Source: a virus
Direction: 5' to 3' (one strand)
IMG/VR virus record: IMGVR_UViG_3300043409_000145
Span: 1 to 39,947 of that record
DNA: 39,947 nucleotides
The position numbers and the translations under genes were made by a program. The notes below the pieces were generated by a model. That model was not told the origin of the DNA. It did not search any database and saw nothing but the letters and a program-made list of their open reading frames with translations. Below, in pieces: positions 32,307 through 39,947 of the stretch. Each line of letters starts with the position of its first letter. Within the stretch, counting starts at the first letter, position 1.

Positions 32307-33140
32307 TTAGTAGAAGTCTGCTAGACTTCGTTGGCTCTTCCACATACCCTTAGGGGTATAGCATAAGCAATCCACTAACACCGACTCGCAATCGAAGCAG
32401 GTGTCGCATAGTTCGCAAAAGTATTCACTCTCGTTAAGGTCGATGAGTGCTTGACAAAACGGGCAGAAGTCTAAGGCTTCCGAAGTTTCATCTATCACAT
32501 CTAACACGGGATAATCTTTATATTCTTTAGCCCAATACTCGTTATCATAGAAGGCGATAGGGGGTGGGGTGTAAGCAACACGCTTGTGGGAACTGTTACT
32601 CCACCACACGCCGTCGCTATCCCAACTACCTAAGTTCTCGTTGATGATATACATCTGGCTACCCGCACTAGGGTCTAGGTTAAGCACCGCTATCTTGCTA
32701 CCACTAGCCCACTTGCTAAGCATACTCCATATAGTATCGTCATCTAGCGAAGCAACACCACCTATCTTCGGTAGTATATCTTCGGCTAGGATACGGCTAT
32801 CGCTACGCTTATCACCTTCTGGTATTGCTACATCTAGTATACCATTGTGCGCTAGGTAAGTCAAGTCGCTATCGCCTACCTTGAACGGGTGGCAATTCTC
32901 TTCGTTCTTTACTCCGTGCGTGGCGTATCTTGCGTGCCACATAGCATAGTCATTCGGATATTGCTCACGCAATTCTAAGAAGCGTTTGATAGACTTCTTA
33001 GCCGACATACTACGCTCGGATATAATCTTACCACCTGCTACGATAGCAAAACCATAGCCGTGCGGATTACTACAAGCACCTGCGTGTAGTTCTTCTTGTT
33101 TAGGTATGCCGTTAGGCTCACACACTACAAGTAGACACAT
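32307..33140 (-). CDS. Class II glutamine amidotransferase with C-terminal zinc ribbon
   Basis: The 277-residue protein starts Met-Cys (MCLLVVCEPNG), so removal of Met exposes the catalytic Cys of the Ntn-type glutaminase. Supporting motifs are the oxyanion/glutamine-binding MWHARYATHG (67-76), CHPF (83-86) and the strand YLAHNGIL (95-102). The usual fused synthase or sugar-isomerase domain is absent. From about 228 on there is a Cys cluster (DFCPFCQA, CELCDTCFDC) forming a zinc ribbon. It would release ammonia from glutamine. It lies next to and downstream of the amidoligase, so ammonia may be passed to a ligation reaction. Confidence 0.85.
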   Translation of the reverse strand: MCLLVVCEPNGIPKQEELHAGACSNPHGYGFAIVAGGKIISERSMSAKKSIKRFLELREQYPNDYAMWHARYATHGVKNEENCHPFKVGDSDLTYLAHNGILDVAIPEGDKRSDSRILAEDILPKIGGVASLDDDTIWSMLSKWASGSKIAVLNLDPSAGSQMYIINENLGSWDSDGVWWSNSSHKRVAYTPPPIAFYDNEYWAKEYKDYPVLDVIDETSEALDFCPFCQALIDLNESEYFCELCDTCFDCESVLVDCLCYTPKGMWKSQRSLADFY

Positions 33141-33153
33141 ACTATCACCCCCT

Positions 33154-34440
33154 CTAGGCGTTCATTACTGCTGGTCGGTTAATATCCACGCCACTTATCT
33201 TGTTTAGTCGCGTGTATAGGTCGGGATATAGCCCGTTGTTCTGGGCTACATAGTCGGCGAACCAAGCCCACGATAGTGCGCCACGCTTGACATCATCTAA
33301 GCGTAGGTCGCGGGTATATTCTACCAACGCTTGTGCTAAGTCTAGGGAAGATAGAACACTACTTGTGTTCATAGTTCCCTTAAAGAAGCGCAACTCTAGT
33401 GTGTCGCGGTTATTGGTATTGACCGCACTATATCTTTCGGTGGACTCACCATACTTTACCTTGTGCTTTAGTGAGAACACGGGCTTGTCATACTCATCGA
33501 AGGTATAGACATCGTTGAACCTAGCATAGCGGGACTTGCGACCCGCGAATTTCATCATCATCTCGGAGTTCTTATAGACCATAGATAAGAAGCGGTGCGT
33601 GTGTGCCCCGCCACTAAACCCTGCTCTACTTATATGGATATGAAGCCCGCAGGTTTCGGTATCCCAACTTCTAGCACCATAGTCGGCGCGTAGTGTATCT
33701 ATGGTATCCCATAGTATCTTAGAATTATCTCGGTATTCTAGGTGTGAGTGCGGTTCGGTAACTATCTCGAAGCCTTGACTACCTATACTGCCATCTTGTT
33801 TAAGCATAGCGATACCTTGTAGGTTAGTCGAAGCATAGTTAGAAGCACCACTATAATCACCCTTACTACCACCTTCGATTACTGTTTCCAACTCGAAGCC
33901 TAGATAGACTCCGTGTTTAGACACACCCTTGAAAGTAACAGGTGGCTTACAATTATAGTCGTGAACTACACTACGGCAACGGCAAGGGCGACCACTTACA
34001 CCCTCTCGACATTCGCAAGGGTCTTCATCGTAGTAACTCTCATCGCACTCATCGCAGTAGTAGCAATACCTACTGAAGCAATGCTCGCAAACAGTATCAT
34101 CGCCTACACAAGAGTAATCATTGTCATTACTATAACTATTCTCGCATTGGCTACAATGAAAGGTGTTATACTCATAGCAACTACGACACCATTGTTCATC
34201 ATCTACACTATAAGTATCATCTCTATCTATACCGCTATCGCAACGCTGGCACTCGGTAGAACACTCTTCACACCATAGTTCTTCACTAACCCACCGAAGT
34301 CTATCGGTGGAGTGAACGCCTCTACAATTACCACAAGCATTAGCACAATCTTCACAATAATAGTCGCCGTTCATCTCTAAGTTCATATCGGCAGGATTAC
34401 TACAATCGTGGCACTCTATCTCGTTCTCATCATCTTCCAT
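33154..34440 (-). CDS. Amidoligase with N-terminal array of zinc ribbons
   Basis: The 428-residue protein has two halves. Residues 8-165 hold about 30 Cys in successive CxxC pairs (CHDC, CEDC, CGNC, CEEC, CQRC, CRSC, CSQC, CEHC, CYYC), a LIM-like or ribbon array. Residues about 175-428 match the phage amidoligase family (Amidoligase_2, glutamine-synthetase-like fold): GVYLGFELETVIEGG (E183, E185), KQDGSIGSQGFEIVTEP (214-230), CGLHIHISR (264-272), FAGRKSRYAR, and the ELRFFKGT strand. These give the metal- and ATP-binding Glu and His set. It should form an amide or peptide bond at ATP cost, acceptor unknown; the Cys array may bind the target. Confidence 0.85.
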   Translation of the reverse strand: MEDDENEIECHDCSNPADMNLEMNGDYYCEDCANACGNCRGVHSTDRLRWVSEELWCEECSTECQRCDSGIDRDDTYSVDDEQWCRSCYEYNTFHCSQCENSYSNDNDYSCVGDDTVCEHCFSRYCYYCDECDESYYDEDPCECREGVSGRPCRCRSVVHDYNCKPPVTFKGVSKHGVYLGFELETVIEGGSKGDYSGASNYASTNLQGIAMLKQDGSIGSQGFEIVTEPHSHLEYRDNSKILWDTIDTLRADYGARSWDTETCGLHIHISRAGFSGGAHTHRFLSMVYKNSEMMMKFAGRKSRYARFNDVYTFDEYDKPVFSLKHKVKYGESTERYSAVNTNNRDTLELRFFKGTMNTSSVLSSLDLAQALVEYTRDLRLDDVKRGALSWAWFADYVAQNNGLYPDLYTRLNKISGVDINRPAVMNA

Positions 34441-34468: not shown

Positions 34469-34497
34469 AGTATAGCATATCTCTATGCCCTTGTCAA
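34469..34497 (-). promoter_or_regulatory. Leftward consensus promoter of the amidoligase gene
   Basis: Minus strand: TTGACA, 17-bp spacer, TATACT (plus-strand boxes 34492-34497 and 34469-34474). The start would be near 34462, 22 bases before the ATG at 34440, with an AGAGAGGGGG ribosome site between. Confidence 0.85.
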
Positions 34498-34668
34498 GTT
34501 CCGTTGGTTATCTATCACGGCGTTGGATATATGAGAGCGAAGTTCTTGTGCTTCTATCTCTAATACCTTGAAGCCGTTGCGCTTGTGCGCTTCTTCTTGT
34601 AGGCGTAGTGCTTGTCGCACTATCTCCACTTGTCTAGGAGTTAGGTCGAGTAGTAGGTTATCTCCCAC
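34483..34668 (-). CDS. Small helical protein, function unknown
   Basis: A 61-residue protein with GTG start (MGDNLLLDLTPRQVEIVRQA). It is two helices with a charged turn (LQEEAHKRNGFKVLEIEAQE). The 3' end contains the -35 box of the amidoligase promoter. The start overlaps the end of the next upstream small gene. No known function. Confidence 0.6.
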   Translation of the reverse strand: MGDNLLLDLTPRQVEIVRQALRLQEEAHKRNGFKVLEIEAQELRSHISNAVIDNQRNLTRA

Positions 34669-34756
34669 GATACTCGCGCCTTCCCATTAGCCTATTGACT
34701 CGCGCCGTTAGGGCGATAATCGCTAGCGTTTCCACTAGGATAATTACTTCTAGCAT
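34658..34756 (-). CDS. Very small membrane peptide
   Basis: A 32-residue gene with a strong GAGAGAGG site before its ATG. The N-terminus is hydrophobic (MLEVIILVETLAIIALTARV) and the end basic (RLMGRREYRGR), so it is probably a single-span membrane peptide. Its stop overlaps the GTG of the next gene. The good ribosome site and tight packing support it despite its size. Confidence 0.6.
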   Translation of the reverse strand: MLEVIILVETLAIIALTARVNRLMGRREYRGR

Positions 34757-34774
34757 ATCCTATCCTCTCTCTGG

Positions 34775-34912
34775 TTAGTGGGTTACTTCACAAGCACCGC
34801 ATAGAGGGCTAGTATCTCTAGCCTTCTTCGGGCACTTACAAGCACACTCACAATATCGCTTATCTTGTCGGATTAGATAGCCGACTAGCGCGGTATAATC
34901 TCCGTAATCCAT
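34775..34912 (-). CDS. Small Cys-rich protein
   Basis: A 45-residue protein starting MDYGDYTALVGYLIRQDKRY. The Cys pattern is CECACKC then CGAC near the end, enough for a zinc site. The frame is open further upstream, but ATG 34912 has GAGAGG just before it and lies after its promoter, so I choose it. Function unknown. Confidence 0.65.
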   Translation of the reverse strand: MDYGDYTALVGYLIRQDKRYCECACKCPKKARDTSPLCGACEVTH

Positions 34913-34937
34913 TCGCCTATCCTCTCTAACTTGCGTA

Positions 34938-34966
34938 AGTGTATCACACCTACGGCTAGAAGTCAA
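34938..34966 (-). promoter_or_regulatory. Leftward promoter of the 34912 gene
   Basis: Minus strand: TTGACT, 17-bp spacer, TACACT (plus-strand boxes 34961-34966 and 34938-34943). It directly precedes the GAGAGG site of the Cys-rich gene. Confidence 0.7.
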
Positions 34967-35048
34967 GTTGCCTAGACTCCCGCGTGTCGCGTGTCGGACT
35001 CGCACCGACCACTATCCGTGCCACTATGGGCGCGACTACTACTGCTTG

Positions 35049-35420
35049 TCAATCCGTGTGGATACTCGGTAGCGACTTGTTAAACGCTTCGCGGCGTTCT
35101 TCGAGTCGTGCGAGCCTACTATCCCTACCTTCTATCCCGTGCGTTCTTGCCATAACTATATCTACTTCTTCCCGATTAAGGGTGGATATAATCGTGTCGG
35201 CTTCCTTATCACTAAGGCGCGCCATAATCATATCGGCTTCTTCATCGCTAAGGGTAGGCAGTATCCTCTCACCCGCACGAGCCGTGCGCTTACGGCGCAT
35301 AGCCTTGCCGTGCGTAGTGTCGGTTAGTCGCCACCCGCGAGAGCCTAGCCGTGTGCTAGTTCCTCTCACCTGTCTAGGTGGCACTACTATACTGCCCGAA
35401 CCCCCGTAGGGGTTACTCAT
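35049..35420 (-). CDS. First gene of the leftward operon; triplicated LSDEEADxIMAR motif
   Basis: A 123-residue basic protein. After a Gly-rich start (MSNPYGGSGSIVVPPRQVRG) and an Arg-rich part (GKAMRRKRTARAGER) it has three 12-residue repeats: LSDEEADMIMAR, LSDKEADTIIST and LNREEVDIVMAR. A basic helix follows (RDSRLARLEERREAFNKS). The repeats alternate acidic and hydrophobic positions like a short helical solenoid. It is the gene nearest the promoter array and probably the first phage protein made. Function unknown. Confidence 0.65.
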   Translation of the reverse strand: MSNPYGGSGSIVVPPRQVRGTSTRLGSRGWRLTDTTHGKAMRRKRTARAGERILPTLSDEEADMIMARLSDKEADTIISTLNREEVDIVMARTHGIEGRDSRLARLEERREAFNKSLPSIHTD

Positions 35421-35450
35421 AATCTATTCCTCTCTCTAGTTCTTGCCCGT

Positions 35451-35479
35451 ATCTTACACTATTGAATTCTGTTTGTCAA
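35451..35479 (-). promoter_or_regulatory. Leftward promoter, proximal to the 35420 gene
   Basis: Minus strand: TTGACA, 17-bp spacer, TAAGAT (plus-strand boxes 35474-35479 and 35451-35456). Start near 35444, with an AGAGAGG site before the ATG at 35420. Confidence 0.8.
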
Positions 35480-35483
35480 GTTA

Positions 35484-35561
35484 GGCTTGAAGTTCGGGCG
35501 AGTCGTGATACCCACGGGCGACCCGCTTCTTCTAGGTAACTAATCAAGCCACCCGAACTTC
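35484..35561 (-). other. Interleaved inverted repeats, possible pseudoknot in the early leader
   Basis: GGCTTGA (35484-35490) is the reverse complement of TCAAGCC (35544-35550), and AAGTTCGGG (35490-35498) that of CCCGAACTT (35552-35560). The order A-B-A'-B' does not nest, so pairing both arms needs a pseudoknot, or the two are alternatives. It would be transcribed from the distal promoters. Confidence 0.5.
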
Positions 35562-35586
35562 TTGCCGTTTATTAACTTGTAACCGA

Positions 35587-35615
35587 AGGATAACACATTC
35601 ACTTGAACTTGTCAA
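35587..35615 (-). promoter_or_regulatory. Leftward tandem promoter 2
   Basis: Minus strand: TTGACA, 17-bp spacer, TATCCT (plus-strand boxes 35610-35615 and 35587-35592). The sequence after the -10 box, TATCCTTCGG, is repeated at the next promoter. Confidence 0.75.
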
Positions 35616-35676
35616 GTCTGCCTATCCTACGGCGTGTCGCTTGTGAAGGATTAACCCTTCCTTAATTGACACCCGA

Positions 35677-35705
35677 AGGATACCACGCTCACACACCCTT
35701 GTCAA
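35677..35705 (-). promoter_or_regulatory. Leftward tandem promoter 3
   Basis: Minus strand: TTGACA, 17-bp spacer, TATCCT (plus-strand boxes 35700-35705 and 35677-35682). A TGTGA-N6-TCACA palindrome starts 10 bases beyond its -35 box. Confidence 0.8.
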
Positions 35706-35715
35706 GTCCTAGCGA

Positions 35716-35731
35716 TGTGATGTCCATCACA
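35716..35731. promoter_or_regulatory. CRP/GlxR-type operator 1
   Basis: TGTGATGTCCATCACA matches the TGTGA-N6-TCACA consensus of CRP-family regulators perfectly. Its centre is about 53 bases upstream of the predicted start of promoter 3, and it also lies just downstream of the predicted start of promoter 4. Confidence 0.6.
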
Positions 35732-35745
35732 CTATTACGGCGGGC

Positions 35746-35774
35746 ATTATATCACACGCTCACCCGCTTGTCAA
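35746..35774 (-). promoter_or_regulatory. Leftward tandem promoter 4, perfect consensus
   Basis: Minus strand: TTGACA, 17-bp spacer, TATAAT (plus-strand boxes 35769-35774 and 35746-35751). This is an exact match to the consensus of the primary sigma factor in both boxes and spacing. Confidence 0.9.
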
Positions 35775-35784
35775 GCACCGAAGG

Positions 35785-35800
35785 TGTGATGTCTGACACA
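35785..35800. promoter_or_regulatory. CRP/GlxR-type operator 2, one mismatch
   Basis: TGTGATGTCTGACACA matches TGTGA-N6-TCACA with one mismatch, shares the TGTGATGTC core with operator 1, and begins 10 bases beyond the -35 box of promoter 4, exactly the offset seen at promoter 3. Confidence 0.5.
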
Positions 35801-36065
35801 CGAACACCTGTTCGATTACTCGCTAGTAACTTATTATTATGCTACCCGTCAGTAACTTATTTAACTAAGTTACCCGCGAGTAAGTTACCCTTCGGTAGAT
35901 AGTCGGCTAAGCGATATATCTATGAATAACTAAATCACCTTGTCAATAAGTCGATAAGTCGACAATTCTTTGACCCCACATACTTAATATGCGTCAGTTT
36001 GGGTGTATATAGTATCCACAAATAATTTTCTGTTATATTGTAATAGCCCCCTATATACTTAAAGA

Positions 36066-36157: not shown

Positions 36158-36182
36158 ACGGAGTCGCTCCGTTTAAGACTCC
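36158..36182 (+). promoter_or_regulatory. Alternative hairpins in the terminase leader
   Basis: ACGGAG-TCG-CTCCGT (36158-36172) and GGAGTC (36160-36165) with GACTCC (36177-36182) share bases, so only one can form at a time. AT-rich tracts flank them on both sides. Confidence 0.5.
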
Positions 36183-36273
36183 GCTCCTATATAGTATATA
36201 ATAATATATATAATGGGACATCTATGCCGTTAAGCGGCTAGCGCTAAATGACTGTAAATGATGGGACAAACTG

Positions 36274-38142
36274 ATGGGTAGAAAGCCTGGGATTCAAAAC
36301 ATCCCAAAGCGCGAGGCCCAGGAAAAGGTCCTCCAGGTCCTAGCTCAGGGCCAGACTATAACGGCCGCTATGGCCACCGTGGGACGTTCTGACGTAGCAT
36401 TCCGCCAATGGGTAGCATCTGACCCTGACTTCAAGGAACGCGCCGAGGGCGCCCGCCTAGAGGGTAAAGGCATCAAGACTGACTTGAAAGAGTTAGCTGA
36501 CATTTCCTTCCCCGACTTCTCCGAACAGTTTTTAGATACCAAGCTCTTTGACCATCACCTCGACTGGGTTGATTTAATCGAGGGCCGCGAGCCGCGATGG
36601 CTACATCCATCTATGACATATGAACCAGGAGCGGCGAACCGTGTCCTCATCAACGTTCCCCCAGAACACGCCAAGTCAACGGTCATCACGACGAACTACG
36701 TCGTCTACAAAATCGTCACTAATCCTAACGCTCGAGTTATCGTCGTATCCAAAACTCAAGGTATGGCTAGAAAGTTTCTCGGAGCAATCAAGACCAGACT
36801 CTCACACCCAGCCTACACAAAGCTTCAAGTAGCCTTCGGACCAAACGGAGGATACAAGGCTGACGCCACACAATGGTCAGCTGATATGATTTACCTAGGC
36901 ACAGGCCGTGACTCAGGTGAGAAAGACCCTACCGTCCAAGCCCTTGGCTTTGGCTCCCAGATTTACGGAGCCCGTGCTGACTTGATTATTCTTGATGACG
37001 TGGTTATGGGCTCTAATGCTCACGAGTGGGAGAAGCAGATTGAGTGGCTCCAGAAGGAAGTTATCACCCGTCTAGGACGGCACGGTAAACTTCTTGTTGT
37101 AGGAACTCGTGTATCCCCAATTGACCTTTATAAGATGATTCGTGACGGCGACCAATGGACAGGTGGCAAGTCACCCTTTACTTATTTTTCACAGCCAGCA
37201 GTTTTAGAGTTTGATGAGAAACCAGATAACTGGAAAACTCTCTGGCCTAAGACTACGATGCAGGAGAACCAGATTGATGAAGTTGGAGAAGACGGACTCT
37301 ACCCTAAGTGGGATGGACCCAGCCTCTTTACTCGAAGGTCTGAGGTTGCTCCGTCGGTCTGGGCTATGGTCTACCAACAGGAAGACGTTCAAGAAGATTC
37401 AATCTTCTCCCCAAGCCTCGTCGCAGGTTGCGTCAACGGAATGCGTAAGCGCGGTCCCCTTAAGGAAAATACTGCAGGACATCCACGGCACATCGAGTCG
37501 ACCTATACTGTAATAGGATTTGACCCTGCTGTAACTGGACGAAGCGCCTTCGTCGCTGTTACTTACAATAGAGCTGATGGAAAAGTTTATGTTTTGGATT
37601 GTGTCAATATGGTTGACCCAACTCCACAGAAAGAAACTGCGCTCATTCACGAATGGGTTGAGAGGTATAAGCCTCAAGAGTTTCGAGTCGAAATCAACGC
37701 ACATCAAAAATACTACGCTATGGATGATGACTTGCGGAACTTCTTGGCTCAATACGGATGCCAGTTAAATTCACACTTCACTGGCAAGAACAAGTGGGAC
37801 GTATCATTCGGTGTAGCCTCTATGGCTAGCCTCTTTGGAAGTCTTCGTGATGGACGCTTCCAAGATAACAACATCATAGAAATGCCAAGCAATGAAGGCT
37901 CTGAAGGACTTAAGTCTCTTACACAGCAACTCATTACTTGGAAGCCTGATACCAAGAACCCAACAGACTGTGTTATGGCTTTATGGTTTGCAATCATCCG
38001 CGTTCGCGAATTGATGCAACAATCTTCAAGAGTAGGTCAGTATCAAACAAACCGTTGGGCCACTAGAGCACAGAAGTCTTCTAGAGGTTCACTCAATCTA
38101 GACGAAGCCTTTGCAGAGCAATGGGCTGAACAACACGGATAA
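36274..38142 (+). CDS. terL: Terminase large subunit with N-terminal HTH
   Basis: The 622-residue packaging motor. Residues about 14-60 hold a helix-turn-helix of the small-terminase kind (TITAAMATVGRSDVAFRQWV), so DNA recognition may be built into this chain; I find no separate small terminase gene. The ATPase has a Walker A-like VPPEHAKSTVITT (about 127-139) and Walker B LIILDDVVMG (about 236-245). The nuclease domain begins at IGFDPAVTGRSAFVAV (about 413-428) with its first Asp, then FRVEINAHQKYY and a late CVMALWFAII. It cuts concatemers and drives DNA through the portal. The 5' part has C-ending codons unlike the structural genes after it. Confidence 0.92.
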   Translation: MGRKPGIQNIPKREAQEKVLQVLAQGQTITAAMATVGRSDVAFRQWVASDPDFKERAEGARLEGKGIKTDLKELADISFPDFSEQFLDTKLFDHHLDWVDLIEGREPRWLHPSMTYEPGAANRVLINVPPEHAKSTVITTNYVVYKIVTNPNARVIVVSKTQGMARKFLGAIKTRLSHPAYTKLQVAFGPNGGYKADATQWSADMIYLGTGRDSGEKDPTVQALGFGSQIYGARADLIILDDVVMGSNAHEWEKQIEWLQKEVITRLGRHGKLLVVGTRVSPIDLYKMIRDGDQWTGGKSPFTYFSQPAVLEFDEKPDNWKTLWPKTTMQENQIDEVGEDGLYPKWDGPSLFTRRSEVAPSVWAMVYQQEDVQEDSIFSPSLVAGCVNGMRKRGPLKENTAGHPRHIESTYTVIGFDPAVTGRSAFVAVTYNRADGKVYVLDCVNMVDPTPQKETALIHEWVERYKPQEFRVEINAHQKYYAMDDDLRNFLAQYGCQLNSHFTGKNKWDVSFGVASMASLFGSLRDGRFQDNNIIEMPSNEGSEGLKSLTQQLITWKPDTKNPTDCVMALWFAIIRVRELMQQSSRVGQYQTNRWATRAQKSSRGSLNLDEAFAEQWAEQHG

Positions 38143-38152
38143 GGATAAACAA

Positions 38153-38461
38153 ATGGCAGCAGTTAGAAAAGATGGCGGAAACGTTCATAAGGCTAAGACA
38201 ATTAACCCAATTTACAAGGCAGCAAAATCTGTAACCAACTATGTTGGCGGCGCAGCTCGCGAAATTCGTGATATTCCTACAGCAATTGGCGCATCACTTA
38301 CACCAGGTGGTCAAGGTTTTACTTCTTACAAAGGAAGAAAATCAACACTTGTGGACCAAGTTAAAGAAGCAGCGGCAGCAATCACTGCTGGACAAAAAGG
38401 TTCATCTGTTGCACATAAAACTGCAGTAGGAGATTTTAAAGATTCCAAGCGCCGTAAATAA
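38153..38461 (+). CDS. Small basic protein between terminase and portal
   Basis: The 102-residue protein starts at ATG 38153 after AAGGATA; the open frame reaches 38111, but that start lies within the terminase gene without a ribosome site. It is Lys/Ala/Gly-rich (MAAVRKDGGNVHKAKTINPI) with two short helices and a basic end (DFKDSKRRK). Probably a small head or packaging protein; no known family. Confidence 0.65.
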   Translation: MAAVRKDGGNVHKAKTINPIYKAAKSVTNYVGGAAREIRDIPTAIGASLTPGGQGFTSYKGRKSTLVDQVKEAAAAITAGQKGSSVAHKTAVGDFKDSKRRK

Positions 38462-38488
38462 TTTTTCCCTTTAATCGTTAGGACAACA

Positions 38489-39947
38489 ATGGCATTAACA
38501 ATGGAACAGGTAACAGCTAGAGTTGAATCTCTACGTTATCGTAATCACGAACGTGATTCTCGCAACCTTGACGTCCTTGCTGTCCGTAAAGGCAAAATTG
38601 CTGAGGTATACCCAGACTTCTTTCCAGATGGTGTAGATGCTAACGTAGTAGCTAACTTTATTGATATCGTTGCACGCGACCTATCTGAAGTTATGGCTCC
38701 ACTTCCAGCAGTAAACTGCTCCGCAGCTAATCAGGTTTCTGATAGAGCTCGCACATTTGCTGACAAGCGCACACGTATTGCTTCTAATTACTTTGCCCAC
38801 TCAGACCTAGCAGTTCAAATGTATTCAGGTGCTGACTGGTATATCACATATGGTTTCGTTCCGTTTATGATTGAACTGGACGATGAAAGCAATCTGCCTC
38901 GCATCCGCATAGAAAACCCAATAGGTGCTTACCCAGAATTTGACCGCTATGGTCGATGCATTGCTTTTGCAAAACGTTACACAATGTCACTTGGCGAACT
39001 TGTTTCACAATTCCCTGACTACGAGCGTGAACTACTTGGTGGCTACGGCTACAAGCAGGACCTCAACACTCAGGTTGAAATGATTCGCTATTACGATAAA
39101 GACCAATCAATCATCTACATCCCAAACAAGCAGAATCTTGTATTATCAAGAGCTGCTAATCCACTTGGAAAGATGATGGTTATTGTTGCACGTAAGCCAT
39201 CCATTGATGGAGAGCTTCGTGGACAGTTCGACGACATTTTAGGAATTCAACTTCTTCGTAACCGTTTTGCTTTACTAGCTATGGAAGCTGCAGAGAAATC
39301 TGTTCAGGCCCCTATAGTTCTTCCACAAGATGTTCAAGAACTACAACTTGGTGGAGATGCGGTTATTCGCACATCTAACCCAGCTGGTGTTCGTCGTGTA
39401 GATTTGAATATCCCAGCAGGCGCATTTACTGAACAATCATTATTAAATCAAGAACTTCGTGTTGGTTCTCGTTATCCAGAATCACGCACAGGAAATATCA
39501 ACGCATCAGTTGTTACTGGCCAAGGCGTTCAAGCTCTTATGGGAGCTTTTGATACCCAGGTTAAATCAGCTCAAGCAATCTTTGCTGCAGCTTTGCGTGA
39601 TGTTATTAGCCTTTGTTTTGAAGTTGATGAAACAATCTACCCTGAAGAAAAGACAATTCGTGGTGTTGACTCAGGTTCACCTTACGAAGTAACATATAAG
39701 CCAGTTAAAGATATCAAGCAAGATTACTCAGCTGATGTCCGTTACGGAATGCTTGCTGGTCTTAACCCAGCTCAAGGTCTTATCTTTATGCTACAAGCAC
39801 TTGGTGGTGGATTAATCTCCAAGGATATGGCAATGCGTGAACTTCCATTCACAGTCAACGTCACGTCAGAACTAGAGAAAATTGAAATCGAGAATATGCG
39901 TCAAGCGTTACTTGGTTCACTTACCGCCTACACTCAAGCAATTCCAC
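38489..39947 (+). CDS. Portal protein, N-terminal part (continues at window start)
   Basis: Starts ATG 38489 (MALTMEQVTARVESLRYRNH) with a GGAC-type site upstream and runs off the window end without a stop. It rejoins at base 2 in the same frame. The N-terminal region is helical with RNLDVLAVRKGKIAEVYPDF. A beta-rich wing follows (IRIENPIGAYPEFDRYGRCI). Then comes a long helical part with a conserved-looking SRYPESRTGNINASVVTGQG segment near residue 330, typical of portal stems. The position after the terminase supports the assignment. Confidence 0.8.
   Translation, partial: MALTMEQVTARVESLRYRNHERDSRNLDVLAVRKGKIAEVYPDFFPDGVDANVVANFIDIVARDLSEVMAPLPAVNCSAANQVSDRARTFADKRTRIASNYFAHSDLAVQMYSGADWYITYGFVPFMIELDDESNLPRIRIENPIGAYPEFDRYGRCIAFAKRYTMSLGELVSQFPDYERELLGGYGYKQDLNTQVEMIRYYDKDQSIIYIPNKQNLVLSRAANPLGKMMVIVARKPSIDGELRGQFDDILGIQLLRNRFALLAMEAAEKSVQAPIVLPQDVQELQLGGDAVIRTSNPAGVRRVDLNIPAGAFTEQSLLNQELRVGSRYPESRTGNINASVVTGQGVQALMGAFDTQVKSAQAIFAAALRDVISLCFEVDETIYPEEKTIRGVDSGSPYEVTYKPVKDIKQDYSADVRYGMLAGLNPAQGLIFMLQALGGGLISKDMAMRELPFTVNVTSELEKIEIENMRQALLGSLTAYTQAIP
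39739..39947. repeat. Terminal overlap, right copy
   Basis: Copy of bases 1-209 with one mismatch at 39820 (c versus g at 82). See the left copy. Removing one copy gives a circle of 39,738 bp with the portal frame intact. Confidence 0.97.

Follow-up and report, generated by a model that had tools for sequence, protein, structure and literature searches.

Early promoters in tandem, as well as phage promoters under CRP or under LexA control, have each been described before. In phage T7, the three strong promoters A1 to A3 for the host polymerase stand in tandem before the early genes with no genes between them, and they are not known to carry CRP or LexA boxes. The classic class I CRP sites of E. 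coli are centered at −61.5 and further such positions, and the stoperators of cluster A mycobacteriophages are many asymmetric repressor sites that are distributed genome-wide and independently of promoters. The CRP sites of M. tuberculosis are concentrated between −60 and −40 relative to the start sites; those upstream of the start are associated with activation, those close to it with repression (PMC4117774). The related regulator GlxR binds TGTGA-N6-TCACA and activates (PMC7999487). In phage GIL01, a host LexA box at +17 of promoter P1 mediates direct repression together with gp7, and the LexA consensus of the Gram-positive Bacillus is CGAAC-N4-GTTCG (PMC4551915). The pir gene of phage T1 is inhibited by host cAMP-CRP (PMC6737242). 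The papers searched, which covered little of the subscription literature, contained neither a combination of these elements in fixed geometry and with wide occurrence in actinophages nor a description of CRP boxes at actinophage early promoters.

The stretch of DNA that we analyzed here, in the following called the window, is a virus contig of 39,947 bp. Of the larger ORFs that matched a family (portal end, head, tail, lysin, exonuclease, helicase, primase and sigma-like), most run rightward up to 30211, while a leftward operon between about 35.7 and 30.3 kb contains amidoligase-like, glutamine-amidotransferase-like, WhiB-like and transglycosylase-like genes. In this operon the amidoligase-like gene (33154–34440) and a class II glutamine-amidotransferase-like gene (32307–33140) lie side by side. 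The promoter array described below is located between the leftward operon and terL, which starts at 36274. Just upstream of terL, an inverted repeat GGAGCGGAGTC...GACTCC in an AT-rich stretch (36160–36187), which is the same in the two relatives L054 and L007, could be part of cos, an origin or a rightward promoter. A promoter-like plus-strand sequence TTAAGA-18-TATAAT at about 36173–36202, roughly 100 bp before terL, recurs in many relatives. The portal gene is apparently split by the window ends (about 38400–39947 and 11–520); its parts are out of frame with each other when the ends are joined, and no end repeat was found there. No integrase or repressor was found among the ORFs scanned, and a terL scan of bacterial genome contigs returned no integrated copies.

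The TerL protein is 79% identical to that of phages E7 and F5, which infect ‘Ca. Planktophila’ LanE-43 and whose control elements of the kind reported here are not described in the main text of that study (PMC10202952). The window virus belongs to the same TerL clade and shares WhiB and sigma-like genes with E7 and F5. Due to this kinship, its host probably belongs to the Nanopelagicales, an assignment made by relationship only.

The array consists of six sites on the minus strand, P1 to P6. P1 (TTGACA-17-TATAAT; −35 at 35769–35774, −10 at 35746–35751, predicted start ~35739) agrees with the consensus in 12 of 12 positions and has an extended −10 (TGa). P2 (−35 at 35700–35705, −10 at 35677–35682, predicted start ~35670) and P3 (−35 at 35610–35615, −10 at 35587–35592, predicted start ~35580) both read TTGACA-17-TATCCT with an extended −10, and P4 reads TTGACA-17-TAAGAT (−35 at 35474–35479, −10 at 35451–35456, predicted start ~35444). 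The initial annotation had listed these four leftward promoters with 17-bp spacing at 35451, 35587, 35677 and 35746, one of them perfect, and all are present on the minus strand. Two more had been placed at 34469 and 34938, and both exist: P6 (TTGACA-17-TATACT, extended −10; −35 at 34492–34497, −10 at 34469–34474) is as proposed, but P5 (TTGACT-17-TACACT, extended −10; 34938–34966) is a weaker site with 9 of 12 matches. A TGn extended −10 is thus found in five of the six sites (P1, P2, P3, P5 and P6).

The description of the region as gene-free applies to P1–P3, between which only tiny ORFs occur and none is backed by homology. It does not apply to P4, P5 and P6, since each lies directly before a start codon (35420, 34912 and 34440, respectively) as a single-gene promoter. 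The −10 of P4 sits 30 bp upstream of the ATG of the operon's first gene (35049–35420, minus strand, 123 aa, conserved in 5 fetched loci) with the predicted start 24 bp before the ATG. P5 serves a predicted 45-aa ORF (34775–34912, minus strand, ATG at 34912), and P6 serves the amidoligase-like gene (minus strand, Pfam Amidoligase_2 above cut-off). The array belongs to a more densely packed regulatory block, which extends to about 35885.

Exact leftward TTGACA-N17-TAnnnT sites number 5 in the window compared with 0.58 expected, and none of 100 shuffles reached at least 5. Scoring at 9 of 12 consensus positions gave 34 sites in the window versus 27.1 ± 6.1 in shuffles, so that a loose consensus scan is useless alone. 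The array is set apart by its exact −35 hexamers, its spacing and its conservation. TTGACA, a spacer within 16–18 bp and a TAnnnT −10, which characterize sigma-70-type promoters, were found, and the sequence data support the assignment of P1–P6 as promoters of the host primary-sigma kind. The earlier view of such promoters stacked upstream of one leftward operon agrees with the excess of exact sites, with their conservation and with the likeness to T7 A1–A3. Like the T7 promoters, P1–P3 are tandem strong promoters without supported genes between them; unlike in T7, further single-gene promoters follow downstream and the number of sites in the array varies among relatives.

For comparison, 80 relatives were fetched by terL and the 2.5 kb upstream of terL was examined where the sequence sufficed. 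Including the window and F5, this gave 60 upstream regions with 134 kb; the remaining 643 kb served as comparison. The array recurs in relatives at a similar distance from terL. TTGACA-17-TAnnnT occurred 124 times leftward and 0 times rightward in the 60 upstream regions compared with 24 times on both strands in the 643 kb elsewhere, counts that come from related sequences and are not independent events, a dependence that clustering reduced but did not remove. With TTGACN allowed, 161 sites were found in the upstream regions versus 6.7 in Markov shuffles. The spacer is 17 bp in 116 of 123 sites, and the site consensus is gAC-TTGACA-AG ... TGn-TAnnnT. Of 51 non-redundant regions, 18 contain at least three array sites, and the cultivated phage F5 lacks TTGACA-17-TAnnnT upstream of terL. 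Between the window and L054, the hexamers of P1–P6 are identical save one base in the −10 of P5, with both hexamers of P1 kept, while the spacers are identical in 73 of 102 positions. P6 is identical in L054 and L007, and both relatives have a site homologous to P5. Hexamers that are kept while spacers drift are the pattern expected of selection for promoter function. Across the 60 upstream regions (e.g. L080 and L059), TTGACA is mostly followed by A and TTGACT mostly by T, and some genomes have mostly TTGACT at the −35.

Upstream of P1 and P2 lie palindromes of the CRP/GlxR type. An exact box TGTGATGGACATCACA (35716–35731, minus strand) is located 10 bp upstream of the −35 of P2 with its center at about −53.5, and a box with one mismatch, TGTGTCAGACATCACA (35785–35800, minus strand), is located 10 bp upstream of the −35 of P1. 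No exact box was found at the 10-bp position of P3–P6. When the window is aligned with L054 and L007, TGTGATGGACATCACA becomes TGTGACGCAACTCACA, i.e. the arms are constant and the N6 core is altered. Exact TGTGA-N6-TCACA occurs 58 times in the 134 kb upstream of terL versus once in the 643 kb elsewhere; in the comparison of upstream regions with shuffles, the numbers were 56 versus 0.1. After removal of near-duplicates, the gap between box and −35 was 10 bp in 14 cases, 20–22 bp in six and 31–33 bp in four, followed by 76 and 87 bp. From 10 bp upward, the gaps thus increase in steps of about 11 bp, one helical turn, as would suit an activator in contact with RNA polymerase. When viral contigs were scanned independently and any gap of 5–35 bp was allowed, 31 of 93 cases had a gap of 10 bp (p about 4e-23 if gaps were distributed uniformly). 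Judged from their gene content, the contigs with this gap appear to be mostly actinophages: a WhiB gene scored over the cut-off in 19 of 26 of them compared with 5 of 26 controls, although the controls were hand-picked from other gaps and unmatched for length or group, and many of the gap-10 contigs are short fragments. The same layout gave 18 matches in a bacterial genome collection, each a single site without an array.

This arrangement resembles the CRP/GlxR promoters of Actinomycetota, in which TGTGA-N6-TCACA lies upstream of the −35 in the −60 to −40 zone (PMC4117774, PMC7999487), and both the upstream box and the helical phasing that mark CRP/GlxR-controlled promoters were found here. 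It differs from them in that the DNA is that of a phage, the box is repeated at neighboring promoters, the 10-bp gap is strikingly fixed and the binder is putative. The center at −53.5 also differs from the −61.5 and related positions of class I CRP sites in E. coli. HTH_Crp_2 matches were obtained in 193 of 198 genomes from the phylum of an ‘Actinomycetes’ MAG, among which none was recognized as belonging to the Nanopelagicales. Phage F5 (L344) carries two exact CRP-type boxes about 650–750 bp upstream of terL and in this respect resembles the window, but has no TTGACA-17-TAnnnT promoter nearby and no TTGACA array. The boxes are therefore not bound to this promoter type, and in F5 they may be used with another one.

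The box of P1 is directly adjoined by a perfect LexA/SOS-type palindrome CGAACAGGTGTTCG (35801–35814), which is the same in L007 and L054 and lies upstream of P1, near −68, and not over it. It matches CGAAC-N4-GTTCG, the LexA consensus of Bacillus. This box was found nine times in the upstream regions versus once in the 643 kb elsewhere and is present in 8 of 51 non-redundant regions, thus being a minority feature. As in GIL01, an SOS box of this consensus is found at a phage control promoter; it lies near −68, directly beside a CRP-type box, instead of at +17. Further upstream, TTAC-N6-GTAA palindromes are present at 35816–35829, adjoining the SOS box, and at 35870–35883, with related copies between them. 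The order TTAC-N6-GTAA, SOS box, CRP-type box is shared by the window, L054, L007 and L080, where the SOS box of L080 has one mismatch; in L048, L055, L056, L060, L061 and L075 the SOS box occurs without an adjacent CRP-type box in the stretch examined. Tandem (G)TTAC-N6-GTAA(C) palindromes as at 35816–35883 of the window are also seen in the control regions of L042, L043, L056, L062, L069, L073, L077 and L080, and DnaA-box-like TGTGGATAA repeats lie near the same control region in L043 and L060.

We propose, with somewhat more confidence than doubt, that P1–P6 are early promoters of the host primary sigma factor, with activation by a host CRP-family protein at P1 and P2 and additional gating by LexA at P1. 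The block at about 34470–35885 would then be the control region of a leftward, probably early, operon, in which P1–P3 would stack transcription and P4–P6 would each add one promoter before one gene. At P1 and P2, the boxes near −53.5 may be occupied by a CRP-family protein of the host (GlxR or mycobacterial CRP type), which may help to recruit RNA polymerase from the same helix face. A LexA dimer on the SOS box at P1 might compete with this activator. Under such competition, P1 would be strongest in cells with active cAMP-type signaling and an induced SOS response. Several observations count against this model: the SOS box is a minority feature and is placed upstream of P1, not over it, the center at −53.5 departs from the class I positions of E. 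coli, and F5 has the boxes without TTGACA promoters. The sequences of the elements, their spacing, conservation and helical phasing and their actinophage setting are direct observations, from which we infer the binding protein, activation over repression, LexA occupancy and early timing.

The boxes could also bind a repressor of host or phage origin, or a protein acting against silencing of the Lsr2 type, instead of a direct activator. The inhibition of T1 pir by cAMP-CRP is a precedent for repression, and cooperation with another DNA-bound protein could likewise account for the constant phase relative to the −35. We nevertheless consider this improbable, since the boxes are clear of the −35, the −10 and the start, and upstream CRP sites in M. 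tuberculosis go with activation whereas near-start ones go with repression. T1 and the window virus would be alike in that phage control genes are linked to host CRP, but in T1 one regulator gene is inhibited in E. coli, while here leftward promoters of actinophages are probably activated.

That the array is a constitutive early cluster of strong, stacked primary-sigma promoters without notable regulation, close to the ‘primary-sigma-driven burst’ of the initial annotation, seems to us quite improbable. Near-consensus hexamers, extended −10 elements, 17-bp spacing and gene-free stacking would all agree with it, as would the lack of an exact box 10 bp from the −35 in P3–P6, and strong consensus promoters should need little activation, a counterpoint to the activator model. 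It is opposed by the CRP-type boxes, which are enriched exactly here (58 versus 1) and phased to the −35. The initial annotation was correct as to promoter kind and stacking but missed the CRP-type boxes, the adjoining SOS box and the single-gene nature of P4–P6, so that a purely primary-sigma-driven burst probably omits an activator and a possible repressor.

A role of CTTGACAAG at the −35 as a phage repressor operator of the cluster A stoperator kind, with the array as an immunity region, would agree with the perfect palindrome CTTGnCAAG around the −35, with its four exact copies in the window all lying in the array and with the tendency of TTGACT to precede T and TTGACA to precede A, but we reject it as very improbable, because no integrase or repressor was found among the ORFs scanned and almost every copy is the −35 of a site with a fitting −10. 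Of 72 leftward TTGACAAG in the 60 upstream regions, 66 are followed by a −10 at promoter spacing, and the opposite strand has only 2 copies, which leaves hardly any free-standing operators and differs from the promoter-independent, genome-wide distribution of stoperators. All four exact copies of CTTGNCAAG in the window are the −35s of P1–P3 and P6.

Returning to CRP-family activation with LexA gating at P1, a farther-reaching and doubtful extension would be that a presumably lytic group of actinophages reads two host states at one promoter by three contiguous palindromes, with LexA blocking the CRP-family activator. Full expression of the leftward operon would then be limited to cells that are in a permissive metabolic state or have DNA damage, which would amount to a host-gated pause of infection in the most abundant freshwater bacteria. 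TGTGA-N6-TCACA-N10-TTGACA-N17-TAnnnT seems to be a marker of actinophage contigs in metagenomes and could aid host prediction where CRISPR spacers are missing. In lakes, the freshwater Nanopelagicales rank with the most abundant bacteria, and the way in which their phages begin an infection is poorly understood. The helically phased, conserved CRP-type box provides a testable link between carbon and energy signaling of the host and the start of infection, and suggests a virus that reads the condition of its host before starting its genes.
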